64,000 bases of DNA from Arenicola marina. Taxonomy: Eukaryota; Annelida; Polychaeta; Arenicolidae. Below are positions 9,462 to 64,000 of this stretch, piece by piece. Where the stretch lies: NCBI GenBank assembly GCA_964019135.1, contig OZ025265.1, positions 4,036,318-4,100,317 of the forward strand, in the 5' to 3' direction. Position 1 is the stretch's first letter. Each line of letters begins with the position of its first letter. A program made the position numbers and the translations under genes. Below the pieces are notes generated by a model that saw only the letters and a list, made by a program, of their open reading frames with translations, had not been told where the DNA came from and did not search any database.

Positions 9462-9612
9462 ATTATATTTATATATCAATATATATATAATGATTTTCAT
9501 ATATATATATATACAGGGATAGAGGGGGAGTGGATGGAGGGAGAGAGACAGAGAGAGAGGGAGAGAAAGAGGGACGGGAAGAGAGAGATGGAGCGAGGGG
9601 AGAGAGAGATGG
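9462..9612 (+). repeat. AT microsatellite followed by GA-rich microsatellite, copy A
   Basis: An (AT)n tract at 9462-9516 is followed by purine-rich GAGAGA repeats at about 9520-9612. The same pair, with different lengths, is at 36944-37090 in copy B. Confidence 0.85.
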
Positions 9613-17500: not shown

Positions 17501-17509
17501 GCTGATGAG

Positions 17510-28825: not shown

Positions 28826-29480
28826 TTGGCAGAAGGTTCACGATGAAATAAATCGAACCTGGGAAGCGCTGACAGACTGTAGGGTAACAGGTTGCACTGT
28901 CTTCCTGTGAGTACAGCAACTTGAGAGCACGACAATGTCTTCCCGTCATAGTATCGTCACCGTTCCAGGCATATTCATAATGTAGTCCAAATTTGGTGTT
29001 CGGGGGTTTGTGCCAACGTTTCCACAAATTTATTTCACCTTGACAATTACGTCAATAATTCTTCCGCGATATTATTTTTCGAATGTTTTACTTTGGCTAG
29101 CATTACCGACATAAATCCAAGTTTATCAATGAATACGGCAAGTACATCTTGCACTCTCGCCCTTTAGAGATTCAACGATTGCATTACATTATCAAACACT
29201 AACAGGGATCTCTGATGAGACTATTCAGTCAATGTGATCCTCGAACTAACCTCGATTGTCAGCACCCACCCCCCAAGGACGCACGATGGAATAATGTCAC
29301 ATGATCTCCCAATTGATGACGGATCCACTCCGCCCACAAAGACGGCCCAATTGCCAGTCGGGAACAACTGACTGGGGGGTCTTGCAGGGTCAGCAAGGGG
29401 TGCCTCTCCGTGTCTCCATGTCTCGAAGCAACCTTGATGATTTCAATCTTATCGATGGAAGCGTGGCTCTTGGTTTTGAG
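28826..29480 (+). repeat. Right unit of an internal duplication in copy B
   Basis: Partner of 27040-27700. No coding capacity is recognised in either unit or in the spacer between them. Confidence 0.7.
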
Positions 29481-31394: not shown

Positions 31395-31525
31395 GCCAAT
31401 TAAGGCGATGGGTATAAATGACATTGGCGAAGAAGGGCATTGCCGCCGCGAAACGTCTTTCAAGGCCATGGAATAAACGTGGCTGCCAATCAGAGGGAGG
31501 CTATTGGGTGCATTATTGGACCAAT
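31395..31525 (+). promoter_or_regulatory. TATA box and CCAAT cluster upstream of 27-bp minisatellite, copy B
   Basis: TATAAA at 31413-31418, CCAAT at about 31396-31400 and 31496-31500, ATTGG at 31503-31507 and 31515-31519, CCAAT at 31521-31525. Order and spacing are the same as in copy A. Whether this reflects constraint or simply shared descent cannot be told from two copies. Confidence 0.35.
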
Positions 31526-31749
31526 CCCATTACAACGAACAAGGGGCGGGGGGAGGGCGGAGGTGAAGGGGGCTTAATGTGATGCATACTCAAAAAAAAT
31601 GACCAAAAGTTATGAAAATGGCGGAGAAGGAGGGGGAGGGCGAAGTGGGGGGGGGAAGATTAATGGCCAGTGCGAGATATAAATTTATATTGTACTTTAG
31701 AGCCCTCTCAATTATGAGTGCTTCCCTCTCAACCACGCAAGGCAAAGTT

Positions 31750-34250: not shown

Positions 34251-34499
34251 TTAATCATCACGTGTAAACGCATTGCCCTTGCCTGCTCGGGTGACGATGA
34301 TATTGTGATACTTCTGTGCGGACGGGAGAGGCCGTTAATAGCGTAACAAGGTGGGAATACGAGTCTTCGCGGCCCATTACGGTAAGGGTTGGGAGCTAAC
34401 AGGAGGGACATGCGTGCTGCTTGCGTGTTAGTGTACGTCGGATATGAATCACATCTCAACATCTGAGAGCTAGGTAATTTGTGAATCTGACGCTACCGT

Positions 34500-35910
34500 C
34501 TCACGTTTATCTGGTGTACCACAGATATTTGGTATTATGCTGTAGATTATTTGCTCTTTCAGTCGTCGCAATAAACAATTCTAAACTACACAGTGTGGCC
34601 TGCTATGGGGTTAATACCGGTAGTCGTAGATATATAATTAACACCCTTGATCCCATAGGATTAATAGCTTGAACTGACCTCGAACAAAATCCTCCGCATC
34701 GAAGAGTGGCCCGGTAGACGAACACGTGTGTTTGCCAAAAACAGACGGCAGATGGTAGACAGCAGACGCGGAGGCGGAGGCGGAGACGGATGCAAAAAAA
34801 TGGTCTGTTCTCTGCATACTTCACATTTATGCTGCTGAAAAAACCCAACATCCCGTTGTTCAAACACAAGATAATCCACGTAAAGGCAGGACACGGTCTA
34901 ACGATACAATTTTGATCATCCAATGCCAGATTGCCTAGACAAAGGTTTTGTTTTTGTAGAACTGTTGTCGACACAGGTGAGTGTTGACAGTTAACCAGTG
35001 CAAGACAAAGATGGTCGTAATTGGTCGGCAAAACAGCTTCATCATTAAGAAGCGTTTGTGATTGAAAATAGGTCTAGCATAGAGGATGTCCACTACCCAC
35101 ACAGGATAGCCATTTAAATTCCTCTTCCTCTTCTGTAGTGAATTCCAGAAAAGAAACAACTCAATTTGAACGAAAGAACATGCATGTTTGGAAGACCGTA
35201 ATTTGCGTTGTTATGCTGGACATTTTTTAGCAGTTTCCGATCATTAGCGGAACATTATAATTCAGCAGAATAGTTCGTGGACATGAATAGCAGGCATCAC
35301 GAAAGTACCATTCCAGCCGGAAATGAAAGTGAAGAGGCGGTAAGAATTATGTCTTTCCCTTGAACTTCGGTATTGTAGTGTTTCTACATATTTGTCTTTG
35401 ACTCAACTTGTCTGCAGTTGAACGCCTTTTAAATTCCAAATATGTAGTTCAAGCATATTAACATTTCAGTTTTTGCACAGAATAGCTTAGTTTCAGTCGA
35501 TTTAATGTGGCATATAAATATACATGTGATAAATAATGTGATATATGCTTTATCGGGTGTTTCATGAACGTCACACCGATACGCTTATGTCACAACGACT
35601 GATTGACATAACGATTCTGCTACACGACCATCAGCTTAGGTCGACATTGTGTCCAAATGCCGGGTTGTCTGATCATCTATCTTACTGCTTTACACCGATT
35701 TCAGACGCAGACAGATGTTAACGAGTCTTGCCCCATCCCAAACCGTTTCCCTCCGACCCCACCTGCCGCCATGCATCCCCAGAACTTCCCAGGCCATATT
35801 TCGTCCCATTATGTAACATTTGTTTGTTAAATCACGCTAAATCAAGCTAAGCCTGACTTGAATAGTCAGTCGACTTGACGACGTCACCGCTTGACTTTTG
35901 ATGCGTGCCG
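34500..35910. other. Copy-B-specific sequence without recognised genes
   Basis: This block largely replaces copy A's 5240-5490. It contains a short GCGGAG/GCAGAC-type run at about 34739-34791 and otherwise unique AT-rich sequence. No domain, RNA gene or element ends were found. Confidence 0.4.
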
Positions 35911-36843
35911 TTCGTAGTAGATGTAGTATGCAATAAATGCTACAGATAATGATGGCCAATCATATTAAGAAATGACAGACTAATGCACTGGTCGATCCGT
36001 CTGTCTGGGGACAAACACGGCTGATATTTATCGGTTCTGTACATGTGTAAGATTCATCGTCCTTAACCCGCCATTGTCCCAGTCTCTCAACCTCTGGTTA
36101 CGAGGCGATCACGTGACGTGGTGGCACCCATCTTCGCCCCCCCCCCCACCCCCCAGCGCACCCACGCAACCCCCTTTTTATTTCACAATCTTGGATCTGC
36201 CCCTGAATTAATGAACCTCCGTCACTTCTCGTCCCATGAGTGGTGGCAATTGATTAATAGCATCAGACCATGGACAGCCAACTTCCGCTTCGGAGCGAGC
36301 CTTCAAGCGGCATTCCTCAGGGTGTTGATATCCAACACAATCCTCGTCACCATTGTGAGCCCGGACAACATGTCCCCAGGAAGTGGATCAGGAGCCCAAA
36401 TTGACGTCTCCTGTTCGCATGGCGTGTTGCTGCGAGCCCGGGTACAACACGTACACGCTGTCTAAGCTACTTCCATTGCCGCAAGCCTTTTGTACGTGGC
36501 AATTGGGAGTTCCGGTTGCTTGTCCAGTCCAAAATTGAGATATTTGACGTGTCTTCATTGTTCTTTCTCGTGACTTGTTAAGGAAATTTGTTACGTCTAG
36601 TAACATAATAAATCAATTATCCATATAGTAAGAAATATGCAAATACGGGGTTGTAAACGGTACATACAATGATATACATGCAAGAGGTGTGGCAATATGA
36701 CACGATTAAGCAGCACAACATAACAGCCGTTTCTTAAACGATAAACATGTACCAATAAAGTCAACTAAATCTCAATTATCTTTTTCATTGTGCGGACTTT
36801 CCGTTCCAAAATTGCATGTTACTGATTATGTTAATAACCAGTA

Positions 36844-36872
36844 TCGGCTCTAGCTCAGCTGGTAGCACACCA
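36844..36872 (+). mobile_element. Remnant SINE head, copy B (A box only)
   Basis: A box TAGCTCAGCTGG at 36851-36862 as in copy A. The sequence then jumps from GCACAC straight to CATGAAAGAATCC. Relative to A, bases 9197-9385, including the B box, are missing. Confidence 0.6.
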
Positions 36873-36943
36873 TGAAAGAATCCAAGTAAATATATGCGAC
36901 ACTGGTTAATGGCCTTTCGTCCCTTCAATATCAGACCATTGAC

Positions 36944-37090
36944 ATTATTATATATATATATATCAATATATATATATAATTATTTGTATATATATACAGG
37001 GATAGAGGGGGAGTGGATGGAGAGAGAGAGAGAGACAGAGAAAGAGGGAGAGAAAGAGGGACGGGAAGAGCGAGGGGAGAGAGAGATGGC
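36944..37090 (+). repeat. AT and GA microsatellites, copy B
   Basis: Counterpart of 9462-9612, with different tract lengths. Confidence 0.85.
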
Positions 37091-38605
37091 GGGTGAAAGA
37101 TAGTGATAGACGGGATGTATATATTAAATCCCAGACGGACAATAAACCATTATTTATGTTGGCCGCAGTCCCTGCGTGTTGTCTGCCCAACCCACTCGTG
37201 TTTGAAGAGAGGTCGCCGGCTGTAGGGCCATTTCACGAAGTCGGTCAATGGCGACAAGTAATAGCGCCAGTCAAGACGACCAACAAGGTTAGATGATGGC
37301 CTCTCCCATGGTCCCGCCTCTTTATGGATTCATGGGGACCGATGCTAACTTCAAACTTTGGCGCCCTCTCTGTGTCGGGGCTGAAAGGTCAAACGACACC
37401 GTGCGAGAATTACGCTAGAATAATGTTAATAAATAAATAATGCCTGCCGGGGACCCGACGTCTGGGTGGCACTGCCGGCCACCAACAGTATGAATATGTG
37501 ACGGTTGGTGATCTCCCACGTGTTGGACGTTCGCCATGTTGATGATCATGCAGACCGCGTCACTCACACCGCCTTCCGCGCCTCTGTGACGGGACGGTAT
37601 GGGATGTATACGGTTATAATGGTGAACGGGCCGCGGTTTGCGCGTGACTGACCGATACAGGCTATCAAAGTGTCGGACTCGAAGACTAACTGCAGTATCA
37701 AGGGTCTTGTCTATGCATGGAATCAGCGCTCTACTGCGAGGAAATGTGGAACTAAAGTATGGCTTCGGCGGGGCCACGTATTTGGCGGATTTCTCGCACT
37801 CTCTTGTCAGTGGCCAATGTTGACACCAGTTCCGGGAAAAACCCATCCCGGTATACGTGTCAGAAATTGAGATTTTATCATATTACGTTACAGTTTGACA
37901 AATTAGTTTATGTGGCGAAGTTCGGCGGCTTAAAAGCTGAAACTTACTGTGTAAGATCCATTTTAGTTTTCCAATCGTGCGTTGTTTTGCTGCCGCCATT
38001 CACGTTACAGATCTTGTCACTCAGTGGTTATCGCGGTATCAATGCGCGTAACTGATATTTACATAAATAGTTCCAACAAACCAACCGAACTTAATATCTA
38101 TAGACCTTAATCATATGAACTCCAACTATAGAAATACAGCTACAATTTACGAAAACAAAAGGTTCATTTAACAAATAGATACCATCTTGCCTAAAACAAT
38201 ATGTTCGTTAGACCTATCTCCGCCGCAGAGGCGTAATCACTTTGACGACGTCATATCTCCAAGGAAACACGTCGCGCGCAACACTTAGTTACCGGTGCTA
38301 TTGAGCACCACTGTTAGGATTTCGACCAAATATTTAGGTGCAGTTGTGAGTATCATTGTCATCGTTAGATCTCCGTGTTGACTTAATGGCGACGTTTGAA
38401 GTTCTATTCGAGCGAGAAAATACATATGGCATATCATCATATCACTCTGCGGCGTGAGTATATGGGATAAAGGTGGTCAGGGTTAAGATTGGATAACCCT
38501 TTGTGATGAGAACTTGGCCACAGGGCTTATGGTCTTGAGCCAATGTTTGCTGTATATTTGCCAACCGCCATGTCTCGGCGCAACCGTGATTTTGCAAAAG
38601 GAGGG

Positions 38606-41360: not shown

Positions 41361-42839
41361 TCAGCACGTTCATAAGGAACTTGCTCAAATTTCCATCAAA
41401 TGTACCTTCGACTATCTAAATCCACAACTCTATTTACCCTCAACACACCGTGACAGCAAACCATGTATCATTAATCATATTCAGCATCAACCAAGTGTGC
41501 CCTCAAAGCATTACAACCCTAACTCACTCACCCAAACTCACTGTCTACAACGTCACGCCACTGTATCCTCAACCCACTGAACCCTCAGCCCATTCTACCC
41601 TTAACCCACTGTACCCTCAGCCCACTGTACCCTCAACCCACTGCACCCTTAACCCACTGTACCCTCAACCCACTGTACCATCAACCCACTGTACCCTCAA
41701 CCCACTGTACCCTCAACCCACTGAACCCTCAGCCCATTCTACCCTTAACCCACTGCACCCTCAACCCACTGTACCCTCAACCCACTGTACCATCAACCCA
41801 CTGTACCCTCAACCCACTGTACCCTCAACCCACTGCACCCTTAACCCACTGTACCCTCAACCCACTGTACCCTCAGCCCACTGTACCCTCAACCCACTGT
41901 ACCCTCAACCCACTGTACCCTCAACCCACTCTACCCTCAACCCACTGTACCCTCAACCCACTGTACCCTCAACCCACTGTACCCTCAGCCCACTGTACCC
42001 TCAGCCCACTGTACCCTCAACCCACTGTACCCTCAGCCCACTGTACCCTCAGCCCACTGTACCCTCAACCCATTGTACCCTCAACCCTCTGTACCCTCAA
42101 CCCACTGTACCCTCAACCCACTGTACCCTCAACCCCCTGTACCCTCAGCCCACTGTACCCTCAGCCCACTGTACCCTCAACCCACTGTACCTTCAACCCA
42201 CTGTACCCTCAACCCACTGTACCCTCAACCCACTGTACCCTCAAGCCACTGTACCCTCAACCCACTGTACCTTCAACCCACTGTACCCTCAACCCACTGT
42301 TACAGGTACTTTCAGCCCACTCTACCCTCAACCCACTGTACCTTCAACCCACTGTACTCTCAGCCCACTGTACCCTAAACCCACTGTACCCTCAACCCAC
42401 TCTACCCACAACCCACTGTACCCTCAACCCACTGTTACAGGTACTTTCAGCCCACTCTACCCTCAACCCACTGTACCTTCAACCCACTGTACTCTCAGCC
42501 CACTGTACCCTAAACCCACTGTACCCTCAACCCACTCTACCCTCAACCCACTGTACCCTCAACCCACTGTACCCTCAACCAACTCTACCTTCAACCCACT
42601 GCACCCTCAAACCACTGTACCCTCAACCCACTGTACCCTCAGCCCCACTGTACCCTCAACCCACTGTACCCTCAACCCACAGTACCCTCAACCCACTGCA
42701 CCCTTAATCCACTGTACCCTCAACCCACTGTACCATCAACCCACTGTACCCTCAACCCACTGTACCCTCAACCCACTGAACCCTCAGCCCATTCTACCCT
42801 TAACCCACTGCACCCTCAACCCACTGTACCCTCAACCCA

Positions 42840-45800
42840 CTGTACCATCAACCCACTGTACCCTCAACCCACTGTACCCTCAACCCACTGCACCCTTAAC
42901 CCACTGTACCCTCAACCCACTGTACCCTCAGCCCACTGTACCCTCAACCCACTGAACCCTCAACAGAATGTACCCTCAACCCACTGTACCCTCAGCCCAC
43001 TGTACCCTCAACCCACTGTACCCTCAACCCACTGTACCCTCAACCCACTCTACCCTCAACCCACTGTACCCTCAACCCACTGTACCCTCAACCCACTGTA
43101 CCCTCAGCCCACTGTACCCTCAGCCCACTGTACCCTCAACCCATTGTACCCTCAGCCCACTGTACCCTCAGCCCACTGTACCCTCAACCCACTGTACCCT
43201 CAACCCACTGTACCCTCAGCCCACTGTACCCTCAGCCCACTGTACCCTCAACCCACTGTACCTTCAACCCACTGTACCCTCAACCCACTGTACCCTCAAG
43301 CCACTGTACCCTAAACCCACGGTACCTTCAACCCACTGTACCCTCAACCCACTGTTACAGGTACTCTCAGCCCACTCTACCCTCAACCCACTGTACCCTC
43401 AACCCAATGTACTCTCAACCCACTGTACCCTTAATCCACTGTACCCTCAGCCGACTGTACCCTCAACCCACTGTACCATCAACCCACTGTACCCTTAGCC
43501 CACTGTACTCTCAGCCCACTGTACCCCCAGCCCACTCTACCCTCAGCCCATTGTACCCTCAACCCACTGTACCCTCAACCCACAGTACCCTCAAGCCACT
43601 GTACCCTCAACCCACTGTACCTTCAACCCACTGTACCCTCAACCCACTGTTACAGGTACTTTCAGCCCACTCTACCCTCAACCCACTGTACCTTCAACCC
43701 ACTGTACTCTCAGCCCACTGTACCCTAAACCCACTGTACCCTCAACCCACTCTACCCTCAACCCACTGTACCCTCAACCCACTGTACCCTCAACCAACTC
43801 TACCTTCAACCCACTGCACCCTCAAACCACTGTACCCTCAACCCACTGTACCCTCAGCCCCACTGTACCCTCAACCCACTGTACCCTCAACCCACAGTAC
43901 CCTCAACCCACTGCACCCTTAACCCACTGTACCCTCAACCCACTGTACCATCAACCCACTGTACCCTCAACCCACTGTACCCTCAACCCACTGAACCCTC
44001 AGCCCATTCTACCCTTAACCCACTGCACCCTCAACCCACTGTACCCTCAACCCACTGTACCATCAACCCACTGTACCCTCAACCCACTGTACCCTCAACC
44101 CACTGCACCCTTAACCCACTGTACCCTCAACCCACTGTACCCTCAGCCCACTGTACCCTCAACCCACTGAACCCTCAACAGAATGTACCCTCAACCCACT
44201 GTACCCTCAGCCCACTGTACCCTCAACCCACTGTACCCTCAACCCACTGTACCCTCAACCCACTCTACCCTCAACCCACTGTACCCTCAACCCACTGTAC
44301 CCTCAACCCACTGTACCCTCAGCCCACTGTACCCTCAGCCCACTGTACCCTCAACCCACTGTACCCTCAGCCCACTGTACCCTCAGCCCACTGTACCCTC
44401 AACCCACTGTACCCTCAACCCTCTGTACACTCAACCCACTGTACCCTCAACCCACTGTACCCTCAACCCCCTGTACCCTCAGCCCACTGTACCCTCAGCC
44501 CACTGTACCCTCAACCCACTGTACCTTCAACCCACTGTACCCTCAACCCACTGTACCCTCAACCCACTGTACCCTCAACCCCCTGTACCCTCAACCCCCT
44601 GTACCCTCAGCCCACTGTACCCTCAGCCCACTGTACCCTCAACCCACTGTACCTTCAACCCACTGTACCCTCAACCCACTGTACCTTCAGCCCACTGTAC
44701 CCTCAACCCACTGTACCCTCAAGCCAATGTACCCTCAACCCACTGTACCTTCAACCCACTGTACCCTCAACCCACTGTTACAGGTACTCTCAGCCCACTC
44801 TACCCTCAACCCACTGTACCCTCAACCCAATGTACTCTCAACCCACTGTACCCTTAATCCACTGTACCCTCAGCCGACTGTACCCTCAACCCACTGTACC
44901 ATCAACCCACTGTACCCTTAGCCCACTGTACTCTCAGCCCACTGTACCCCCAGCCCACTCTACCCTCAGCCCATTGTACCCTCAACCCACTGTACCCTCA
45001 ACCCACTGTACCCTCAACCCACTGTACCCTCAACCCACAGTACCCTCAAGCCACTGTACCCTCAACCCACTGTACCTTCAACCCACTGTACCCTCAACCC
45101 ACTGTTACAGGTACTTTCAGCCCACTCTACCCTCAACCCACTGTACCCTAAACCCACTGTACCCTCAACCCACTCTACCCTCAACCCACTGTACCCTCAA
45201 CCCACTGTACCCTCAACCAACTCTACCTTCAACCCACTGCACCCTCAAACCACTGTACCCTCAACCCACTGTACCCTCAGCCCCACTGTACCCTCAACCC
45301 ACTGTACCCTCAACCCAGTGTACCCTCAACCCACTGTACCCTCAGCCCACTCTACCCTCAACCCACTGTACCCTCAGCCCACTGTACCCTCCACCCACTG
45401 CACCCTCAACCCACTGTACCCTCAACCTACTCTACTCCGAACCCACCGTACCCTCAGCCCACTGTACCCATAACCCACAGTACCCGCAACCCACTGTACC
45501 CTCAACCCACTGTACCCTCGATCCGCTGTACGCTCAGCCCAATGTACCCTCAACCCACCCTACCCTCAGCCCACTCTACCCTCAACCCACTGTACCCTCA
45601 GCCCACTCTACCCTCAACCTACTGTACCCTCAGCCCACTGTACCCTCCACCCGCTGCACCCTCAACACAATCTACCCTCAACCCACTCTACCCTCAACCT
45701 ACTCTACCCCCAACCCACCGTACCCTCAGCCCACTGTACCCATAACCCACTGTACCCGCAACCCACTGTACCCTCAACCCACTGTACCCTCCATCCACTG

Positions 45801-46577
45801 TACCCTCAGCCCACTGTACCCTCAACCCACTCTACCCTCAACCAACTGTTCCCTCAGCCCACTCTACCCTCAACCGACTGTACCCTCCATCCACAGTACC
45901 CTCAGCCCACTGTACCCTCAACCCACTGTACCCTCAACCCACTGTACCCTCAACCCACTGTACCCTCAACCCACTGTACCCTCAACCCACTGTACCCTCA
46001 ACCCACTGTAACCTCAACCCACTGTACCCTCAACCCACTGTACCCTCAACCCACTGTACTCTCAACCCACTGTACCCTCAGCCCACTGTACCCTCAACCC
46101 ACTGTACCGTCAAACCACTGTACCCACAACCCACTCTACCCTCAACTCACTGTAACCTCAACCCACTGTACCCTCAACCCACTGTACCCTCAACCAACTG
46201 TACCCTCAACCCACTGTACACTCAATCCACCGTACCCTGAACCCACTGTACCCTCAACCCACTGCACCCACAACCCACTGTACTTTCAACCCACTGTACC
46301 TTCAACCCACTGTACCCTCAGCCCACTGTACCCTCAGCCCACTGTAACCTCAAACCACTCTACCCTCAACCCACTGTACCCTCAACCCACTGTACCCTCA
46401 ACCCAGTGTACCCTCGACCCACCGTACCCTCAACCCACCGTAACCTCAACCCACTGTACCCTCAACAGAATGTACCCTCAACCCACTGTACCCTCAACCC
46501 ACCGTACCCTCAACCCACTGTACCCTCAACCCAATGTACCCTCAACCCACCGTAACCTCAACCCACTGTACCCTCAA
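42840..46577 (+). repeat. First copy of a 5.7-kb superrepeat within the 16-bp array
   Basis: Irregular markers recur 5703-5735 bases to the right: CAACAGAATG at about 42962 and 44175 (to 48667 and 49912), GTTACAGGTAC at about 43353, 44778 and 45107 (to 49057, 50513 and 50842) and CAACAGAAGG at about 46577 (to 52281). Variant order between the markers is also kept, with a few small differences. Confidence 0.85.
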
Positions 46578-48540
46578 CAGAAGGTACCCTGAACCCACTG
46601 AACCCTCAACCCACCGTACCCTCAGACCACTGTACCCTCAACCCAATGTACCCTCAACCCAATGTACCCTCAACCCAATGTACCCTCAACCAACTGTACC
46701 CTCAACCCACTGTACCCTCAACCCACCGTACCCTCAACCCACTATACCCTCAGCCCACTGTACCCTCAAGCCACTGTACCCTCAACCCACTGTACCCTCA
46801 ACCCAATGTACCCTCAACTCACTGTACCTTCAACCCACGGTACTGTCAGCCCACAGTACCCTCAACCCATGGTACCCTCAAACCAATGTACCCTCAACCC
46901 ACTGTACCTTCAACCCACTGTACCCTCAACCCACTGTACCCTCAACCCACTCTACCCTCAACTCACTCTACCTTCAACCCACTGTACCCTCAACCCACTG
47001 TATCCTCAACCCACTGTACCCTCAACCCACTGTACCCTCAACCAACTCTACCTTCAACCCACTGTACCTTCAACCCACTGTACCCTCAACCCGCTGTACC
47101 ATCAACCCAATGTACCCTCAACCCACCGTACCCTCAACCAACTGTACCCTCAACCCACCGTACCCTCAACCCACCGTAGCCTCAACCCACTGTACCCTCA
47201 ACCCACTGTATCCTCAACCCACCGTACCCTCAACCCACTGTACCCTCAACCCAATGTACCCTCAACCCAATGTGTCCTCAACCCAATGTACCCTCAACCA
47301 ACTGTACCAACCCACCGCACCCTCAACCCACCGTACTCTCAACCCAATGTACCCTCAACCCAATGTACCCTCAACCAACTGTACCCTCAACCCACTGTAC
47401 CCTCAACCCACCGTACCCTCAACCCACTATACCCTCAGCCCACTGTACCCTCAAGCCACTGTACCCTCAACCCACTGTACCCTCAACCCAATGTACCCTC
47501 AACCCAATGTACCCTCAACTCACTGTACCTTCAACCCACTGTACTGTCAGCCCACAGTACCCTCAACCCATGGTACCCTCAAACCAATGTACCCTCAACC
47601 CACTGTACCTTCAACCCGCTGTACATTCAACCCACTGTACCTTCAACCCACTGTACCTCAACAGAATGTACCCTCAACCCACTGTACCCTCAACCCACCG
47701 TACCCTCAACCCACTGTACCCTCAACCCAATGTACCCTCAACCCACCGTAACCTCAACCCACTGTACCCTCAACAGAAGGTACCCTGAACCCACTGAACC
47801 CTCAACCCACCGTACCCTCAGACCACTGTACCCTCAACCCAATGTACCCTCAACCCAATGTACCCTCAACCCAATGTACCCTCAACCAACTGTACCCTCA
47901 ACCCACTGTACCCTCAACCCACCGTACCCTCAACCCACTATACCCTCAGCCCACTGTACCCTCAAGCCACTGTACCCTCAACCCACTGTACCCTCAACCC
48001 AATGTACCCTCAACTCACTGTACCTTCAACCCACTGTACTGTCAGCCCACAGTACCCTCAACCCATGGTACCCTCAAACCAATGTACCCTCAACCCACTG
48101 TACCTTCAACCCACTGTACCCTCAACCCACTGTACCCTCAACCCACTCTACCCTCAACTCACGCTACCTTCAACCCACTGTACACTCAACCCACTGTATC
48201 CTCAACCCACTGTACCCTCAACCCACTGTACCCTCAACCAACTCTACCTTCAACCCACTGTACCTTCAACCCACTGTACCCTCAACCCGCTGTACCATCA
48301 ACCCAATGTACCCTCAACCCACCGTACCCTCAACCAACTGTACCCTCAACCCACCGTACCCTCAACCCACCGTAGCCTCAACCCACTGTACCCTCAACCC
48401 ACTGTATCCTCAACCCACCGTACCCTCAACCCACTGTACCCTCAACCCAATGTACCCTCAACCCAATGTGTCCTCAATCCAATGTACCCTCAACCAACTG
48501 TACCAACCCACCGTACCCTCAACCCACCGTACCCTCAACC
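46577..48540 (+). repeat. Nested 1.2-kb duplication within the 16-bp array
   Basis: The marker CAACAGAAGGTACCCTGAAC recurs at about 46577 and 47772. The next several hundred bases of variant order agree, including two almost identical 177-codon frames at 46646 and 47842 (offset 1196). Confidence 0.8.
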
Positions 48541-48542
48541 CA

Positions 48543-51500
48543 CTGTACCATCAACCCACTGTACCCTCAACCCACTGTACCCTCAACCCACTGCACCCTT
48601 AACCCACTGTACCCTCAACCCACTGTACCCTCAGCCCACTGTACCCTCAACCCACTGAACCCTCAACAGAATGTACCCTCAACCCACTGTACCCTCAGCC
48701 CACTGTACCCTCAACCCACTGTACCCTCAACCCACTGTACCCTCAACCCACTCTACCCTCAACCCACTGTACCCTCAACCCTCTGTACCCTCAACCCACT
48801 GTACCCTCAGCCCACTGTACCCTCAGCCCACTGTACCCTCAACCCACTGTACCCTCAGCCCACTGTACCCTCAGCCCACTGTACCCTCAACCCACTGTAC
48901 CCTCAACCCACTGTACCCTCAGCCCACTGTACCCTCAGCCCACTGTACCCTCAACCCACTGTACCTTCAACCCACTGTACCCTCAACCCACTGTACCCTC
49001 AAGCCACTGTACCCTAAACCCACGGTACCTTCAACCCACTGTACCCTCAACCCACTGTTACAGGTACTCTCAGCCCACTCTACCCTCAACCCACTGTACC
49101 CTCAACCCAATGTACTCTCAACCCACTGTACCCTTAATCCACTGTACCCTCAGCCGACTGTACCCTCAACCCACTGTACCATCAACCCACTGTACCCTTA
49201 GCCCACTGTACTCTCAGCCCACTGTACCCCCAGCCCACTCTACCCTCAGCCCATTGTACCCTCAACCCACTGTACCCTCAACCCACTGTACCCTCAACCC
49301 ACTGTACCCTCAACCCACAGTACCCTCAAGCCACTGTACCCTCAACCCACTGTACCTTCAACCCACTGTACCCTCAACCCACTGTTACAGGTACTTTCAG
49401 CCCACTCTACCCTCAACCCACTGCACCTTCAACCCACTGTACTCTCAGCCCACTGTACCCTAAACCCACTGTACCCTCAACCCACTCTACCCTCAACCCA
49501 CTGTACCCTCAACCCACTGTACCCTCAACCAACTCTACCTTCAACCCACTGCACCCTCAAACCACTGTAACCTCAACCCACTGTACCCTCAGCCCCACTG
49601 TACCCTCAACCCACTGTACCCTCAACCCACAGTACCCTCAACCCACTGCACCCTTAACCCACTGTACCCTCAACCCACTGTACCATCAACCCACTGTACC
49701 CTCAACCCACTGTACCCTCAACCCACTGAACCCTCAGCCCATTCTACCCTTAACCCACTGCACCCTCAACCCACTGTACCCTCAACCCACTGTACCATCA
49801 ACCCACTGTACCCTCAACCCACTGTACCCTCAACCCACTGCACCCTTAACCCACTGTACCCTCAACCCACTGTACCCTCAGCCCACTGTACCCTCAACCC
49901 ACTGAACCCTCAACAGAATGTACCCTCAACCCACTGTACCCTCAGCCCACTGTACCCTCAACCCACTGTACCCTCAACCCACTGTACCCTCAACCCACTC
50001 TACCCTCAACCCACTGTACCCTCAACCCACTGTACCCTCAACCCACTGTACCCTCAGCCCACTGTACCCTCAGCCCACTGTACCCTCAACCCACTGTACC
50101 CTCAGCCCACTGTACCCTCAGCCCACTGTACCCTCAACCCACTGTACCCTCAACCCTCTGTACACTCAACCCACTGTACCCTCAACCCACTGTACCCTCA
50201 ACCCCCTGTACCCTCAGCCCACTGTACCCTCAGCCCACTGTACCCTCAACCCACTGTACCTTCAACCCACTGTACCCTCAACCCACTGTACCCTCAACCC
50301 ACTGTACCCTCAACCCACTGTACCTTCAACCCCCTGTACCCTCAGCCCACTATACCCTCAGCCCACTGTACCCTCAACCCACTGTACCTTCAACCCACTG
50401 TACCCTCAACCCACTGTACCCTCAGCCCACTGTACCCTCAACCCACTGTACCCTCAAGCCAATGTACCCTCAACCCACTGTACCTTCAACCCACTGTACC
50501 CTCAACCCACTGTTACAGGTACTCTCAGCCCACTCTACCCTCAACCCACTGTACCCTCAACCCAATGTACTCTCAACCCACTGTACCCTTAATCCACTGT
50601 ACCCTCAGCCGACTGTACCCTCAACCCACTGTACCATCAACCCACTGTACCCTTAGCCCACTGTACTCTCAGCCCACTGTACCCCCAGCCCACTCTACCC
50701 TCAGCCCATTGTACCCTCAACCCACTGTACCCTCAACCCACTGTACCCTCAACCCACTGTACCCTCAACCCACAGTACCCTCAAGCCACTGTACCCTCAA
50801 CCCACTGTACCTTCAACCCACTGTACCCTCAACCCACTGTTACAGGTACTTTCAGCCCACTCTACCCTCAACCCATTGTACCCTAAACCCACTGTACCCT
50901 CAACCCACTCTACCCTCAACCCACTGTACCCTCAACCCACTGTACCCTCAACCAACTCTACCTTCAACCCACTGCACCCTCAAACCACTGTACCCTCAAC
51001 CCACTGTACCCTCAGCCCCACTGTACCCTCAACCCACTGTACCCTCAACCCACTGTACCCTCAACCCACTGTACCCTCAGCCCACTCTACCCTCAACCCA
51101 CTGTACCCTCAGCCCACTGTACCCTCCACCCACTGCACCCTCAACCCACTGTACCCTCAACCTACTCTACTCCGAACCCACCGTACCCTCAGCCCACTGT
51201 ACCCATAACCCACAGTACCCGCAACCCACCGTACCCTCAACCCACTGTACCCTCGATCCACTGTACGCTCAGCCCAATGTACCCTCAACCCACCCTACCC
51301 TCAGCCCACTCTACCCTCAACCCACTGTACCCTCAGCCCACTCTACCCTCAACCTACTGTACCCTCAGCCCACTGTACCCTCCACCCGCTGCACCCTCAA
51401 CACAATCTACCCTCAACCCACTCTACCCTCAACCTACTCTACCCCCAACCCACCGTACCCTCAGCCCACTGTACCCATAACCCACTGTACCCGCAACCCA

Positions 51501-52281
51501 CTGTACCCTCAACCCACTGTACCCTCCATCCACTGTACCCTCAGCCCACTGTACCCTCAACCCACTCTACCCTCAACCAACTGTTCCCTCAGCCCACTCT
51601 ACCCTCAACCGACTGTACCCTCCATCCACAGTACCCTCAGCCCACTGTACCCTCAACCCACTGTACCCTCAACCCACTGTACCCTCAACCCACTGTACCC
51701 TCAACCCACTGTACCCTCAACCCACTGTACCCTCAACCCACTGTAACCTCAACCCACTGTACCCTCAACCCACTGTACCCTCAACCCACTGTACTCTCAA
51801 CCCACTGTACCCTCAGCCCACTGTACCCTAAACCCACTGTACCGTCAAACCACTGTACCCACAACCCACTCTACCCTCAACCCACTGTAACCTCAACCCG
51901 CTGTACCCTCAACCCACTGTACCCTCAACCAACTGTACCCTCAACCCACTGTACACTCAATCCACCGTACCCTGAACCCACTGTACCCTCAACCCACTGC
52001 ACCCACAACCCACTGTACCTTCAACCCACTGTACCTTCAACCCACTGTACCCTCAGCCCACTGTACCCTCAGCCCACTGTAACCTCAAACCACTCTACCC
52101 TCAACCCACTGTACCCTCAACCCACTGTACCCTCAACCCAGTGTACCCTCGACCCACCGTACCCTCAACCCACCGTAACCTCAACCCACTGTACCCTCAA
52201 CAGAATGTACCCTCAACCCACCGTAACCTCAACCCGATGTACCCTCAACCCACCGTAACCTCAACCCACTGTACCCTCAAC
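48543..52281 (+). repeat. Second copy of the 5.7-kb superrepeat
   Basis: Counterpart of 42840-46577. A small length difference (5703 against 5735) shows later gain or loss of two 16-bp units in one copy. Confidence 0.85.
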
Positions 52282-55200
52282 AGAAGGTACCCTGAACCCA
52301 CTGAACCCTCAACCCACCGTACCCTCAGACCACTGTACCCTCAACCCAATGTACCCTCAACCCAATGTACCCTCAACCCAATGTACCCTCAACCAACTGT
52401 ACCCTCAACCCACTGTACCCTCAACACACCGTACCCTCAACCCACTATACCCTCAGCCCACTGTACCCTCAAGCCACTGTACCCTCAACCCACTGTACCC
52501 TCAACCCAATGTACCCTCAACTCACTGTACCTTCAACCCACTGTACCCTCAACCCACTGTACCCTCAACCCACTCTACCCTCAACTCACTCTACCTTCAA
52601 CCCACTGTACCCTCAACCCACTGTATCCTCAACCCACTGTACCCTCAACCCACTGTACCCTCAACCAACTCTACCTTCAACCCACTGTACCTTCAACCCA
52701 CTGTACCCTCAACCCGCTGTACCATCAACCCAATGTACCCTCAACCCACCGTACCCTCAACCAACTGTACCCTCAACCCACCGTACCCTCAACCCACCGT
52801 AGCCTCAACCCACTGTACCCTCAACCCACCGTATCCTCAACCCACCGTACCCTCAACCCACTGTACCCTCAACCCAATGTACCCTCAACCCAATGTGTCC
52901 TCAACCCAATGTACCCTCAACCAACTGTACCAACCCACCGTACCCTCAACCCACCGTACTCTCAACCCAATGTACCCTCAACCCAATGTACCCTCAACCA
53001 ACTGTACCCTCAACCCACTGTACCCTCAACCCACCGTACCCTCAACCCACTATACCCTCAGCCCACTGTACCCTCAAGCCACTGTACCCTCAACCCACTG
53101 TACCCTCAACCCAATGTACCCTCAACTCACTGTACCTTCAACCCACTGTACTGTCAGCCCACAGTACCCTCAACCCATGGTACCCTCAAACCAATGTACC
53201 CTCAACCCACTGTACCTTCAACCCGCTGTACATTCAACCCACTGTACCTTCAACCCACTGTACCCTCAACCCACTGTACCCTCAACCCACTCTACCCTCA
53301 ACTCACTCTACCTTCAACCCACTGTACCCTCAACCCACTGTATCCTCAACCCACGGCACCCTCAACCCACTGTACCCTCAACCAACTCTACCTTCAACCC
53401 ACTGTACCTTCAACCCACTGTACCCTCAACCCGCTGTACCATCAACCCAATGTACCCTCAACCCACCGTACCCTCAACCAACTGTACCCTCAACCCACCG
53501 TACCCTCAACCCACCGTAGCCTCAACCCACTGTACCCTCAACCCACTGTATCCTCAACCCACCGTACCCTCAACCCACTGTACCCTCAACCCAATGTTCC
53601 CTCAACCCAATGTGTCCTCAACCCAATGTACCCTCAACCAACTGTACCAACCCACCGTACCTTCAACCCACTCTACCCTCAATCCACTGTACCCTCAACC
53701 CACTGTACCCTCAACCCACTGACCCATCAACCCACTGTACCCTCAACCCACTGTACCCTCAACCCACTGTACCCTCAGCCCACTGTATACTCAACCCACT
53801 GTACCCTCAACCCACTGTACCCTCAGCCCACTGTACCCTCAACCCACTGTACCCTCAATCCACTCTACCCTCAGCCCACTGTACCCTCAACCCACTGTAC
53901 CCTCAACCCACTCTACCCTCAACCCACTGTACCCTCAGCCCACTGTACCCTCAACCCACTGTACCCTCAATCCACTGTACCCTCAGCCCACTGTACCCTC
54001 AACCCACTGTACCCTCAACCCACTCTACCCTCAACCCACTTTACCCTCAGCCCACTGTACCCTCAACCCATTGTACCCTCAACCCACTGTACCCTCAACC
54101 CATTGTACCCTCAACCCACTGTACCCTTAACCCACTGTACCCTCAACCCACTGTACCCTCAACCCATTGTACCCTCAACCCACTGTACCCTCAACCCACT
54201 GTACCCTCCACCCACTGTACCCTCAACCCACTGAACCCTCAGCCCACTGTACCCTCAACCCACTGTACCCTCAACCCACTCTACCCTCAATCCACTGTAG
54301 CCTCAACCCACTGTACCCTCAACCCAATGTACCCTCAACCCAATGTGCCCTCAACCCTCTGTACCCTCAACCCACTGTATCCTCAACCTACTGTACGCTC
54401 AACCCAATGAGCCCTCAACCCGCTGTACCCTCAACCCACTGTACCCTCAACCCACTGTACCCTCAACCCACTCTACCCTCAGCCCACTCTACCTTCAACC
54501 CACTGTACCCACAACCCACTGTACCCTCAACCCACTGTACCCTCAGCCGACTTTATGCTCAACCCACTGTATCCTCAACCCAATGTACCCTCAACCCAAT
54601 GTACCCTCAACCCTCTGTATCCTCAGCCCACTGTACCCTCAACCCACTGTACCCTCAGCCCACTCTACCTTCAACCCACTGTACTCACAATCTACTGTAC
54701 CCTCAACCCACTGTACCCTCAGCCGACTGTATACTCAACCCACTGTATCCTCAACCAAATGTACCCTCAACCCAATGTACCCTCAACCCTCTGTATCCTC
54801 AGCCCACTGTACCCTCAACCCACTGTATCCTCAACCTACTGTACCTTCAACCCAATGAGCCCTCAACCTGCTGTACCCTCAACCCACTGTACCCTCAACC
54901 CACTGTACCCTCAACCCACTGTATCCTCAACCTACTGTACCTTCAACCCAATGAGCCCTCAACCCGCTGTACCCTCAACCCACTGTACCCTCAACCTACC
55001 GTAGCCCCAGCCCACCGTAACCTCAACCGACTGTACCCTCAACCCACTGTACCCTCAACCCACTGTACCCTCAACCCACTGTAGCCTCAGCCGACTGTAC
55101 CCTCAACCCACTGTACCATCAACCCACTGTACCCTTAGCCCACTGTACCCTCAACCCACTGTACCATCAACCCACTGTACCCACAACCCATTGTACCCTC

Positions 55201-55757
55201 AGCCGACTGTACCCTCAACCCACTGTACCATCAACCCACTGTACCCTTAGCCCACTGTACCCTCAACCCACTGTACCATCAACCCACTGTACCCTTAGCC
55301 CACTGTACCCTCAACCCACCGTACCCTCAACCCACTGTATCCTCAACCTACTGTACCTTCAACCCAATGAGCCCTCAACCTGCTGTACCCTCAACCCACT
55401 GTACCCTCAACCCACTGTACCCTCAGCCGACTGTACCCTCAACCCACTGTACCATCAACCCACTGTACCCTTAGCCCACTGTACCCTCAACCCACTGTAC
55501 CATCAACCCACTGTACCCTTAGCCCACTGTACCCTCAACCCACCGTGCCCTCAACCCACTGTACCCACTGTACCCTCAACCCACTGTACCATCAACCCAC
55601 TGTACCCTTAGCCCACTGTACCCTCAACCCACCGTGCCCTCAACCCACTGTACCATCAACCCACTGTACCCTTAGCCCACTGTACCCTCAACCCACTGTA
55701 CCCTCAACCCACTGTACCATCAACCCACTGTACCCTTAGCCCACTGTACCCTCAACC

Positions 55758-57190
55758 CACCGTACCCTCAACCCACTGTATCCTCAACCTACTGTACCTT
55801 CAACCCAATGAGCCCTCAACCTGCTGTACCCTCAACCCACTGTACCCTCAACCCACTGTACCCTCAGCCGACTGTACCCTCAACCCACTGTACCATCAAC
55901 CCACTGTACCCTTAGCCCACTGTACCCTCAACCCACTGTACCATCAACCCACTGTACCCTTAGCCCACTGTACCCTCAACCCACTGTACCATCAACCCAC
56001 TGTACCCTTAGCCCACTGTACCCTCAACCCACTGTACCATCAACCCACTGTACCCTTAGCCCACTGTACCCTCAACCCACCGTGCCCTCAACCCACTGTA
56101 CCCTCAACCCACTGTACCCTCAACCCACTGTACCATCAACCCACTGTACCCTTAGCCCACTGTACCCTCAACCCACTGTACCATCAACCCACTGTACCCT
56201 TAGCCCACTGTACCCTCAACCCACTGTACCCTCAACCCACTGTACCATCAACCCACTGTACCCTTAGCCCACTGTACCCTCAACCCACCGTACCCTCAAC
56301 TCACTGTATCCTCAACCTACTGTACCTTCAACCCAATGAGCCCTCAACCTGCTGTACCCTCAACCCACTGTACCCTCAACCCACTGTACCCTCAGCCGAC
56401 TGTACCCTCAACCCACTGTACCATCAACCCACTGTACCCTTAGCCCACTGTACCCTCAACCCACTGTACCATCAACCCACTGTACCCTTAGCCCACTGTA
56501 CCCTCAACCCACTGTACCATCAACCCACTGTACCCTTAGCCCACTGTACCCTCAACCCACCGTGCCCTCAACCCACTGTACCCACTGTACCCTCAACCCA
56601 CTGTACCATCAACCCACTGTACCCTTAGCCCACTGTACCCTCAACCCACCGTGCCCTCAACCCACTGTACCATCAACCCACTGTACCCTTAGCCCACTGT
56701 ACCCTCAACCCACTGTACCCTCAACCCACTGTACCATCAACCCACTGTACCCTTAGCCCACTGTACCCTCAACCCACCGTACCCTCAACCCACTGTATCC
56801 TCAACCTACTGTACCTTCAACCCAATGAGCCCTCAACCTGCTGTACCCTCAACCCACTGTACCCTCAACCCACTGTACCCTCAGCCGACTGTACCCTCAA
56901 CCCACTGTACCATCAACCCACTGTACCCTTAGCCCACTGTACCCTCAACCCACTGTACCATCAACCCACTGTACCCTTAGCCCACTGTACCCTCAACCCA
57001 CTGTACCATCAACCCACTGTACCCTTAGCCCACTGTACCCTCAACCCACTGTACCATCAACCCACTGTACCCTTAGCCCACTGTACCCTCAACCCACCGT
57101 GCCCTCAACCCACTGTACCCTCAACCCACTGTGCCCTCAACCCACTGTACCATCAACCCACTGTACCCTTAGCCCACTGTACCCTCAACC
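55758..57190 (+). repeat. 1017-bp superrepeat at the right end of the 16-bp array
   Basis: The block from GTATCCTCAACCTACTG and AATGAGCCCTC at about 55775 recurs at about 56792. The marker CACCGTGCCC at about 56082 recurs at 57099. Both offsets are 1017. Units here are rich in the CATCAAC and CTTAGCC variants, unlike the rest of the array. The second copy breaks off near 57190. Confidence 0.8.
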
Positions 57191-57602
57191 CACCGTGCCC
57201 TCAACCCACTGTACCATCAACCCACTGTACCCTCAACCCACCGTGCCCTCAACCCACTGTACCCTCAACCCACTGTACCCTCAACCCACTGTACCCTCAA
57301 CCCACTGTACCCTCAACCCACTGTACCCTCAGCCCACTGTACCACCAGCCCACTGTACCCTCAACCCACTGTACCCTCAGCCCATTGTACCCTCAACCCA
57401 CTGTACACTCAACCCATTGTACCCTCAACCCACTGTACCCTCAACCCACTGTACCCTCAACCCACTGTACCCTCAGCCCACTGTACCACCAGCCCACTGT
57501 ACCACCAGCCCACCGTACCCTCAACCTACTGTACCACCAGCCCACCGTACCCTCAACCCACTGTACCCCCAGCCCACCGTACCCTCAACCCACTGTACTA
57601 TC

Positions 57603-58510
57603 AGACCGGCCCTAGTTGACCCGTATGTTGTGTCAATGGACTAACAGGGACGATATTACACAGGGGAACGGCAACCCACATATTGCGGCCAGAAGGGTGC
57701 TCTAATGCAATGTCGAACATTAACCAATGCGTCGTGACGATTTGAAAGGAATGTCTATTGCAGAAAAAAGAAAATAATGCAGATGTCTCCAGTTCGGTTG
57801 CTCTGATACCAGTAAAACTCACCCCACGAGATCCCACGAGACCTTACCATATTGCAATTAGCAGTAGACATTTAGGAGCCGGATCAAGAGGAAATGACGC
57901 CTGTATCACGACAACACTCCAGCAGGAGTCGAATTGTCTGTCTGTATAATGCGTCAATGGTGCATTCTCATCACGTGGCTGGTGATGTGAATCGTCAGGT
58001 TATAAAACCAACGCCTGCTTCAATATCAAGGCGATAACACGAAGGCAGTGTCTCTAGTTGAGACGGAGGCGTTGTTACAACCATCATGGTAGCTTACATA
58101 CCATGTCAGAGACAATTCCATCTTGGGCCCCCGCGGCCAGTAGACCTATCCAGGCTGTCAATCATTCACTGACGTCACTGTTGCCGTTTTCCAATCATGT
58201 GGTGCATAAAGGTCTGCGTTAGTTCGGACAAACAAGTCGGAGAAACAAAGCAGCATGTCACTTTCGTCTCAGTTTCAGAGATGAGCACTTCTCACTTGTA
58301 CCTACCATCGGCTAGGATTGTCAATTTCATACTCACGATTAGGGAAAAGGGCTCAAACGTGGGCGGGGCTTAGTGTCGGAGTGTGGATCGGTCTATTTCG
58401 ACACGCTGCATAATTATGTTGGTTCTGAAGGGAGCATAGCATTTTCCTGATGTCGTATGAGTGGCATACAACCCCGCTACAGTGGCCATGTTTAAAACTA
58501 TTTTAACAAC
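57603..58510. other. No gene recognised
   Basis: Unique sequence right of the giant array. A TATA-like CATAAAGG lies near 58205. No exon is supported. Confidence 0.4.
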
Positions 58511-61562: not shown

Positions 61563-64000
61563 ATCTGGGTGAGACACCTGAGAATGACGCCTCCTATCCC
61601 TGCAGCCCCTTCCAGCTGATCTGGGTGAGACACCTGAGAATGACGCCTCCTATCCCTGCAGCCCCTTCCAGCTGATCTGGGTGAGACACCCGAGAATGAC
61701 GCCTCCTATCCCTGCAGCCCCTTCCAGCTGATCTGGGTGAGACACCCGAGAATGACGCCTCCTATCCCTGCAGCCCCTTCCAGCTGATCTGGGTGAGACA
61801 CCCGAGAATGACGCCTCCTATCCCTGCAGCCCCTTCCAGCTGATCTGGGTGAGACACCCGAGAATGACGCCTCCTATCCCTGCAGCCCCTTCCAGCTGAT
61901 CTGGGTGAGACACCTGAGAATGACGCCTCCTATCCCTGCAGCCCCTTCCAGCTGATCTGGGTGAGACACCCGAGAATGACGCCTCCTATCCCTGCAGCCC
62001 CTTCCAGCTGATCTGGGTGAGACACCCGAGAATGACGCCTCCTATCCCTGCAGCCCCTTCCAGCTGATCTGGGTGAGACACCTGAGAATGACGCCTCCTA
62101 TCCCTACAGCCCCTTCCAGTTGATCTGGGTGAGACACCTGAGAATGACGCCTCCTATCCCCACAGCCGCTTCCAGCTGATCTGGGTGAGACACCCGAGAA
62201 TGACGCCTCCTATCCCTACAGCCCCTTCCAGCTGATCTGGGTGAGACACCCGAGAATGACGCCTCCTATCCCTGCAGCCCCTTCCAGTTGATCTGGGTGA
62301 GACACCTGAGAATGACGCCTCCTATCCCTGCAGCCCCTTCCAGCTGATCTGGGTGAGACACCCGAGAATGACGCCTCCTATCCCTGCAGCCCCTTCCAGT
62401 TGATCTGGGTGAGACACCCGAGAATGACGCCTCCTATCCCTGCAGCCCCTTCCAGTTGATCTGGGTGAGACACCTGAGAATGACGCCTCCTATCCCTACA
62501 GCCCCTTCCAGCTGATCTGGGTGAGACACCCGAGAATGACGCCTCCTATCCCTGCAGCCCCTTCCAGCTGATCTGGGTGAGACACCCGAGAATGACGCCT
62601 CCTATCCCTGCAGCCCCTTCCAGCTGATCTGGGTGAGACACCCGAGAATGACGCCTCCTATCCCTGCAGCCCCTTCCAGCTGATCTGGATGAGACACCCG
62701 AGAATGACGCCTCCTATCCCTGCAGCCCCTTCCAGCTGATCTGGGTGAGACACCCGAGAATGACGCCTCCTATCCCTGCAGCCCCTTCCAGCTGATCTGG
62801 GTGAGACACCCGAGAATGACGCCTCCTATCCCTGCAGCCCCTTCCAGCTGATCTGGGTGAGACACCCGAGAATGACGCCTCCTATCCCTGCAGCCCCTTC
62901 CAGCTGATCTGGGTGAGACACCCGAGAATGACGCCTCCTATCCCTGCAGCCCCTTCCAGCTGATCTGGGTGAGACACCTGAGAATGACGCCTCCTATCCC
63001 TGCAGCCCCTTCCAGCTGATCTGGGTGAGACACCCGAGAATGACGCCTCCTATCCCTGCAGCCCCTTCCAGCTGATCTGGGTGAGACACCCGAGAATGAC
63101 GCCTCCTATCCCTGCAGCCCCTTCCAGCTGATCTGGGTGAGACACCCGAGAATGACGCCTCCTATCCCTGCAGCCCCTTCCAGCTGATCTGGGTGAGACA
63201 CCCGAGAATGACGCCTCCTATCCCTGCAGCCCCTTCCAGCTGATCTGGGTGAGACACCCGAGAATGACGCCTCCTATCCCTGCAGCCCCTTCCAGCTGAT
63301 CTGGGTGAGACACCCGAGAATGACGCCTCCTATCCCTGCAGCCCCTTCCAGCTGATCTGGGTGAGACACCCGAGAATGACGCCTCCTATCCCTGCAGCCC
63401 CTTCCAGCTGATCTGGGTGAGACACCCGAGAATGACGCCTCCTATCCCTGCAGCCCCTTCCAGCTGATCTGGGTGAGACACCCAAGAATGACGCCTCCTA
63501 TCCCTGCAGCCCCTTCCAGCTGATCTGGGTGAGACACCCGAGAATGACGCCTCCTATCCCTGCAGCCCCTTCCAGCTGATCTGGGTGAGACACCCGAGAA
63601 TGACGCCTCCTATCCCTGCAGCCCCTTTTAGCTGATTTGGGTGAGACACCCGAGAATGACGCCTCCTATCCCTGCAGCCCCTTCCAGCTGATCTGGGTGA
63701 GACACCTGAGAATGACGTCTCCTATCCCTGCAGCCCCTTCCAGCTGATCTGGGTGAGACACCCGAGAATGACGCCTCCTATCCCTGCAGCCCCTTCCAGC
63801 TGATCTGGGTGAGACACCCGAGAATGACGCCTCCTATCCCTGCAGCCCCTTCCAGCTGATCTGGGTGAGACACCTGAGAATGACGTCTCCTATCCCTGCA
63901 GCCCCTTCCAGCTGATCTGGGTGAGACACCTGAGAATGACGTCTCCTATCCCTGCAGCCCCTTCCAGCTGATCTGGGTGAGACACCCGAGAATGACGCCT
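61563..64000 (+). repeat. 56-bp minisatellite (about 43 units, runs off the window)
   Basis: Tandem 56-base units contain CTGATCTGGGTGAGACAC, CCGAGAATGACGCC, TCCTATCCCTGCAG and CCCCTTCCAG. Units are highly similar, differing mainly at C/T in CACCYGAG, GACGYCTCC and CCAGYTGAT. Each unit contains a donor-like GGGTGAGA and acceptor-like pyrimidine tracts ending CTGCAG and TTCCAG. The unit has stop codons and 56 is not a multiple of three, so no long frame exists. The right end is outside the window. Confidence 0.97.

Follow-up and report, generated by a model that had tools for sequence, protein, structure and literature searches.

A locus-specific 16-bp minisatellite array of about 1000 units in Arenicola marina with predicted weak and probably incidental G-quadruplex potential

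Does a long tandem repeat with regularly spaced G runs on one strand owe its internal duplications to G-quadruplex (G4) folding, or is the folding potential incidental to the unit that was amplified? The question arises at a 16-bp array in a stretch of 64,000 nucleotides from Arenicola marina (the window). A first-pass annotation had described its minus strand as an unbroken quadruplex-prone track that could stall replication and would explain the block duplications inside it. According to our analysis the array is very probably an ordinary, locus-specific minisatellite with incidental, weak G4 potential, which would have grown by slippage and unequal exchange.

TRF resolved the array into 999.6 copies of a period of 16 with 87% matches, in agreement with the roughly 1000 units of the first-pass annotation. 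For the coordinates of all features see Table 1. Decomposition into units gave 1001 pieces, partial ones included, of which 977 are exactly 16 nt long. The plus-strand consensus unit, TGTACCCTCAACCCAC, is present 335 times; on the minus strand, which is G-rich, it reads GTGGGTTGAGGGTACA in a different rotation. As a head-to-tail repeat with a unit of 10–99 bp the array is a minisatellite in the size class used in PMC12130307. Its nested block copies, studied here in one assembly, carry recurring unit variants. It was the longest single array met in the analysis; since none of the stretches sampled elsewhere exceeded 10 kb, longer arrays could not show up there.

Table 1. Features of the 16-bp array, in positions of the window.
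Feature	Position	Strand	Remarks
16-bp minisatellite array, ~1000 units	41558..57598	.	TRF, unit decomposition and genome matches
Left edge, where single unit-like pieces (CCCTCAAC, CCCTCAAAG) precede the regular array	41420..41557	.	sequence, by eye
Span with ten 23-bp variant units (TGTTACAGGTACTYTCAGCCCAC)	42298..50860	+	common to block copies
Largest internal block duplication, copy A, 2935 bp	43552..46486	+	99.5% identity to copy B, lag 5735
Largest internal block duplication, copy B	49287..52221	+	
995-bp block	46460..47454	+	second copy 47656-48650 (98.6%)
794-bp block	55383..56176	+	second copy 56400-57193 (99.5%)

Exact matches to two consecutive units in the 867-Mb genome numbered at least 92, all within the array. 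Allowing up to three mismatches yielded at least 835 forward matches, all on C20 among the matches listed, and at least four reverse matches. The latter four lie on C4 and belong to a different repeat built on GAGGCTGGAGTGGGTT. A dispersed satellite was therefore rejected, no second copy being present among the matches listed. A genome-wide count of C runs spaced periodically over five tracts carried no information, with 7528 and 8158 matches versus 7761 and 8046 for the reversed control. An origin from telomeric repeats was discarded as well: the window contains neither TTAGGG nor CCCTAA in three consecutive copies, and the array is located approximately 4.08 Mb into its 33-Mb contig. Nor is it a coding repeat, because every plus-strand frame is interrupted many times along the array, and the longest open segment comprises 760 out of approximately 5300 possible amino acids. 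Three perfect units (48 bp), worked out by hand, do provide a plus-strand frame devoid of stop codons.

On the minus strand the GGG runs are separated by loops of four (TTGA) and six (TACAGT) nucleotides, which confirms the 4-6-4 loop pattern of the first-pass annotation. The hundreds of G3+N1-7 matches expected from it were also found. We counted 291 non-overlapping motifs on the minus strand and none on the plus strand, 5.6 times as many as in shuffled sequences (means of 51 and 52 for mononucleotide and dinucleotide shuffles, 50 of each kind), so the regularity of the G-run spacing is well beyond chance. The track is not unbroken, however. The motifs chain into 161 separate stretches covering 10379 of 16041 bp (65%), and the longest of these extends over 387 bp. 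Both C3/G3 tracts are intact in 671 of the 1001 pieces, one in 309 and none in 21. Runs of intact units have a mean length of 2.9 and a maximum of 24, compared with a longest run of 15.4 (sd 3.2) for shuffled order; block copying alone could be the cause of this difference.

Predictor scores no higher than those of shuffled sequence had been named beforehand as an outcome speaking against the quadruplex track, and G4Hunter gave this outcome. Its mean was 1.07 in the array and 1.09–1.11 in composition-matched shuffles, and the share of 25-nt windows scoring at least 1.2 was 27.5% as opposed to 40–42%. With RNA folding parameters, two units prefer a quadruplex (-6.9 kcal/mol) over hairpins (-2.6 kcal/mol). 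The gain from RNA quadruplex folding amounted to 5.5 kcal/mol per 200 nt in 40 array windows versus 17.9 kcal/mol in shuffles (one per window), a comparison to which we give little weight because shuffling lengthens the G runs and the energies used apply to RNA. Among the 1650 consecutive four-tract sets, all loops are within 7 nt in 913 and within 4 nt in 10. To judge from the sequence, quadruplexes with loops of 4, 6 and 4 nt would be weak and interrupted at most. The i-motif potential suggested for the plus strand found no support for the neutral-pH form: the published rule C5(N1-19C5)3 (PMC5605235) has no match in the array, and 1634 of 1653 tracts are exactly three bases long.

Block duplications are present in the assembly, as had been claimed. 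About 14 of 2935 sites distinguish the two copies of the largest block, and numerous blocks of differing lag and identity are nested in one another. For comparison, we analyzed further arrays of the genome. In 10-kb stretches taken at 5 Mb from each of 18 contigs (180 kb in total), tandem repeats make up 44.5% of the sequence, and three of the 18 stretches consist of repeat from end to end; the contrast in repeat content between distal and mid-contig stretches is based on five of the latter.

The block test comprised 13 hand-chosen arrays, namely the 16-bp array, four further arrays in the window and eight sampled elsewhere; among those left out are arrays in L014, L019, L021, L023 and L027, the 82-bp array of L018 and the 38-bp array of L026. 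We required a duplicate at least 500 bp away with a score more than twice the best of eight unit-order shuffles. Nine of the 13 arrays are free of any G4 motif. Distant block duplicates were observed in six of these nine, including all five longer than 5 kb, and the other three (27a, 27b and 56) did not reach twice their null. A first version of the test (lag of at least five units, three nulls) had placed eight of the nine at twice the null or above. It was rerun in the stricter form because several best lags equalled the minimum allowed and possibly reflected plain local likeness. The nulls of both versions are somewhat low, since fixed-length chunks make arrays with indels lose phase. The 16-bp array, which is also the longest of those tested and has a low null, obtained the strongest score of the 13 (49 times the best null, followed by 11.9 times). 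The L018 stretch contains 80 minus-strand motifs with loops of up to 3 nt, and its 12-bp array is therefore a better G4 candidate than the 16-bp array; it was unremarkable in the block test (ratio 5.8).

If consecutive minus-strand quadruplexes stalled replication and thereby caused the block duplications, the motif excess and the strong block score would both be expected. PMC5491262 also describes the G4 minisatellite CEB1 as unstable in yeast without Pif1. The same work, however, associates the instability of yeast G4 minisatellites with short loops: the forms of CEB1 that cause it have single- or zero-nucleotide loops, loops of up to 3 nt are generally more prone, and one loop of at least 4 nt stabilised a yeast array regardless of its melting temperature. 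None of the 1650 four-tract sets of our array has all its loops within 3 nt. The density of G4-competent sequence was 0.631 at 68 ends of 17 hand-chosen blocks and 0.648 (sd 0.038) at random positions, the ends being nested and non-independent and the true breakpoints possibly lying elsewhere. Since G4-free arrays contain block duplicates as well and the short-loop-rich L018 array does not stand out, the stalling explanation of the first-pass annotation is unsupported and, in our estimate, quite improbable. It is very improbable, too, that many weak adjacent quadruplexes jointly slow replication forks over 16 kb and create a G4-dependent rearrangement hotspot despite their long loops.

A function of the array that needs the G-rich strand, for instance as a chromatin or replication-timing element, appears extremely unlikely. 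The strand asymmetry is strong (GC skew of -0.70 to -0.74 between 42 and 56 kb, measured in steps of 2 kb), but any skewed unit yields such asymmetry, and the G runs are not preferentially conserved. Deviation from the consensus is 6.0% at tract positions versus 6.8% elsewhere in the unit, and 12.3% versus 12.9% among the 130 distinct 16-nt variants; of 88 triplet pairs, 29 and 38 show better conservation. With tract and non-tract positions deviating alike, there is no visible selection on the G runs. A Pfam search of 20 ORFs of the window (18 of the 193 ORFs of at least 60 amino acids outside the arrays and two in the 72-bp array) recognised only two pieces of transposase, and Rfam gave no match. 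Blocks of 99.5% identity among near-identical units are hard to assemble, and misjoined repeat reads might have produced part of the large duplications. This is highly unlikely as well, because the differences between the two largest copies and the nesting of blocks of varied lag and identity do not resemble a single misjoin.

We thus favour an ordinary minisatellite. A short C-rich/G-rich seed would have expanded by replication slippage and, later, through unequal exchange or duplication of blocks; other arrays of the genome appear to have grown likewise. The G-run spacing would be a by-product of whichever unit was amplified. Our observations suggest nothing in favour of quadruplex folding having built the array or serving a role in it. 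Several points sit less well with an ordinary minisatellite, namely the motif excess, the top block score, the three G4-free arrays below twice their null, the run of 24 intact units, the quadruplex preference with RNA parameters and the length of the array.

By itself the array matters little, long minisatellite arrays being numerous in the genome. In tandem repeats, agreement with G3+N1-7 is a consequence of the unit, and its weight should depend on how long the loops are, whether the tracts are conserved and how G4-free arrays compare. With tandem arrays in nearly half of the sequence sampled at 5 Mb, the genome would lend itself to asking whether stability is any lower in G4-prone arrays than in the others.

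Like the 16-bp array, human CEB1 and CEB25 are GC-rich tandem repeats in which one strand carries the G runs and might form quadruplexes. The difference lies in the loops, which are short in the instability-causing forms of CEB1 and 4 and 6 nt long here; moreover, folding and instability of CEB1 have been measured, whereas the 16-bp array was judged from its sequence. The insulin-linked polymorphic region (ILPR VNTR), according to PMC12852952, also combines a G-rich repeat with a C-rich partner strand. It is located in a promoter and its folding has been studied, whereas the 16-bp array has tracts of nearly always three bases and no recognised gene nearby. Arrays of the same genome differ in that most of those tested contain no G4 motif. 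The 12-bp array of L018, the 34-bp array of L016 and the 30-bp array of L029 are likewise long and contain internal block duplicates.

The 16-bp array is very probably an ordinary minisatellite that grew by slippage or unequal exchange and whose predicted G-quadruplex (G4) potential is incidental, weak and interrupted. The about 1000 units described in the first-pass annotation were confirmed by Tandem Repeats Finder (999.6 copies) and by cyclic alignment to the consensus, which yielded 1001 pieces, 977 of exactly 16 nt and 138 distinct. The commonest unit on the plus strand is TGTACCCTCAACCCAC (335 copies). Mean identity to the consensus per 50 units ranges from 0.91 to 0.96 along the array and is slightly higher near the left end. 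As judged by eye, the left edge is gradual, with a few unit-like pieces, and the right edge is sharp at ~57598. The window lies at 4.04–4.10 Mb on a 33.0-Mb contig of the 867-Mb assembly. Exact two-unit matches in the assembly number at least 92, and all reported ones are inside the array. Allowing up to three mismatches gave at least 835 forward and at least 4 reverse matches; the forward ones among the matches listed are all on contig C20. The four reverse matches, on contig C4, belong to a different minisatellite built on GAGGCTGGAGTGGGTT and not to a second copy of the array.

The SINE-like element has at least 61 matches including itself (40 of 4661 first-look candidates scored), and the best other matches listed are 84–89% identical. 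It has at least dozens of copies, some in short tandem runs (e.g. C4:12528664-12529752). For the left flank of the 16-bp array there is a single short relative, on the opposite strand ~19 kb away. A Pfam search covered 20 open reading frames, 18 of the 193 of at least 60 aa outside the arrays and two in the 72-bp array; only two, which overlap, matched, to DDE transposase and Tc5/CENP-B-type DNA-binding domains. The 72-bp array lies where G+C is 64–69% (2-kb windows 18–20 and 20–22 kb). Each of its strands has long but broken open frames, reaching 562 and 809 aa, and Pfam matched neither the 562-aa plus frame nor a 518-aa minus frame. Searches of the window found no tRNA, and no Rfam family passed the gathering threshold. 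Two segments of ~10–14 kb (window 1–10500 and 24580–38600) are collinear copies, with pieces 78–98% identical; in each lies an array of one shared 27-bp unit, with 61 copies in one segment and 93 in the other.

Features of the window and one sampled array (L018, a 10-kb stretch elsewhere in the genome)
Feature	Position	Details	Source
DDE transposase piece	window 6805–7798	DDE_1, E 2e-17; Tc5 and CENP-B N-terminal DNA-binding	Pfam
72-bp array	window 17508–21468	55 copies	
16-bp minisatellite array	window 41558–57598	period 16, 999.6 copies, 87% matches	Tandem Repeats Finder
SINE-like dispersed element, ~260 bp	window ~58138–58400	right flank of 16-bp array	
56-bp array	window 61563–64000, runs off window end	43.5 copies, 98% matches	
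L018 array	L018 1–5683	12-bp unit ATACCCGGCCCC; 87 G4 motifs	

Tandem repeats occupy 43% of the window, 44.5% of eighteen 10-kb stretches, each at the 5-Mb point of a different large contig (L013–L030), and 11.8% of five 5-kb mid-contig stretches (L031–L035). Three of the eighteen (L015, L016, L020) consist of repeat throughout, so arrays reaching 10 kb or more are common in this sample. Units in the 5-Mb sample are diverse, from 12 to ~80 bp long and in some cases near 175 bp, and the longest arrays reach at least 10 kb. The A. marina genome looks array-rich, and this small sample suggests that its chromosome arms may be rich in minisatellites. An excerpt of PMC12130307 gives 2.65% minisatellites for a published earthworm assembly, a figure obtained by different methods from our 44.5%, which comes from a small, mostly distal sample. 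G4-rich arrays occur in two of the eighteen stretches, L018, with 80 minus-strand motifs with loops of at most 3 nt, and L026 (38-bp unit, 25 G4 motifs); G4 potential therefore does not make the 16-bp array exceptional.

A separate contig carries mitochondrial COX1. The piece L036 has the gene order ND3, ND2, COX1, COX2, ATP8, COX3 and, translated with the invertebrate code (the five AGA codons of COX1 as serine), is open. Besides COX1, Pfam recognised ND3, ND2, COX2 and COX3, and ATP8 only below the cut-off. In annelids, COX3 typically comes after ATP8 while ATP6 lies elsewhere, and the order in L036 thus suggests an annelid.

The minus strand of the 16-bp array had been described as an unbroken G4-prone track. 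It does match the G3+N1-7 rule, with 291 non-overlapping motifs versus 51–52 in shuffles (50 of each of two kinds), a consequence of the even spacing of G runs by the unit. The track is not unbroken: the motifs form 161 separate chains covering 10379 of 16041 bp, the longest being 387 bp. Among 1653 G3+ tracts, 1634 are exactly GGG; both tracts are intact in 671 of the 1001 pieces, one in 309 and none in 21, and runs of intact units average 2.9 (longest 24). Loops usually read TTGA or TACAGT, and all loops are at most 7 nt in 913 of 1650 consecutive four-tract sets, at most 4 nt in 10 and at most 3 nt in 0. Scores no higher than in shuffled sequence, named beforehand as a refutation, were obtained with G4Hunter (mean 1.07 versus 1.09–1.11; windows of at least 1.2, 27.5% versus 40–42%) but not with the rule-based count. 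The suggested plus-strand i-motif potential found no support in the neutral-pH rule as excerpted from PMC5605235 (0 matches in the array). Tract positions deviate from the consensus in 6.0% versus 6.8% elsewhere over all units, and in 12.3% versus 12.9% among 130 distinct 16-nt variants; in these two comparisons, 29 and 38 of 88 triplet pairs surpass the real tracts in conservation. There is no sign of selection keeping the G-run pattern.

Block duplications are indeed present in this assembly. The largest is 2935 bp (99.5% identical, lag 5735); next come blocks of 995 bp (98.6%), 798 bp (99.8%) and 794 bp (99.5%), along with numerous smaller nested blocks. The nesting, together with general knowledge of minisatellites, suggests that replication slippage and unequal exchange would have enlarged the array. 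That G4 on the minus strand caused the duplications, as the first-pass annotation proposed through stalling, is improbable, with loop length, block ends and arrays without G4 motifs all speaking against it. For 68 block ends, the density of G4-competent sequence within 25 bp was 0.631 versus 0.648 at random places (sd 0.038), giving no sign of enrichment; these ends represent 17 blocks hand-chosen among 60 of 97 duplication rows, nested blocks are not independent, and the actual breakpoints may lie elsewhere. We also scored distant duplicates (lags of at least 500 bp) in 13 hand-chosen arrays, taking as criterion a score more than double that of the highest among 8 unit-order shuffles. Six of nine arrays lacking a G4 motif on either strand exceeded it, including all five longer than 5 kb; of the others, 27b reached 1.9 times the null, and 27a and the 56-bp array did not rise above it. 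The 16-bp array had by far the highest ratio (49; next 11.9), although it is also the longest of the 13 and has a low null. This high score takes a little weight from the reading as an ordinary minisatellite and gives slightly more weight to a G4 cause and to the still less probable reading that weak adjacent G4s act jointly and make the array a G4-dependent rearrangement hotspot. L018, whose short-loop motifs are many, reached 5.8. This block score does not stand out, although the motifs make L018 a better candidate for G4 instability than the 16-bp array.

Loop length separates the array from known unstable systems. According to an excerpt of PMC5491262, the minisatellite G4s that caused instability in yeast had short loops, and lengthening one CEB1 loop to 2–3 nt brought instability to low or background levels; citing previous work of their own, its authors add that one loop of at least 4 nt stabilised an array independently of Tm. 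A 2025 review (PMC12650012, in excerpt) puts the cost of each added loop nucleotide at ~2 °C in K+. The loops of the 16-bp array are mostly of the 4- and 6-nt class. With no four-tract set in which all loops are at most 3 nt, it differs from the CEB1 arrays found unstable in yeast, whose G4s have short loops.
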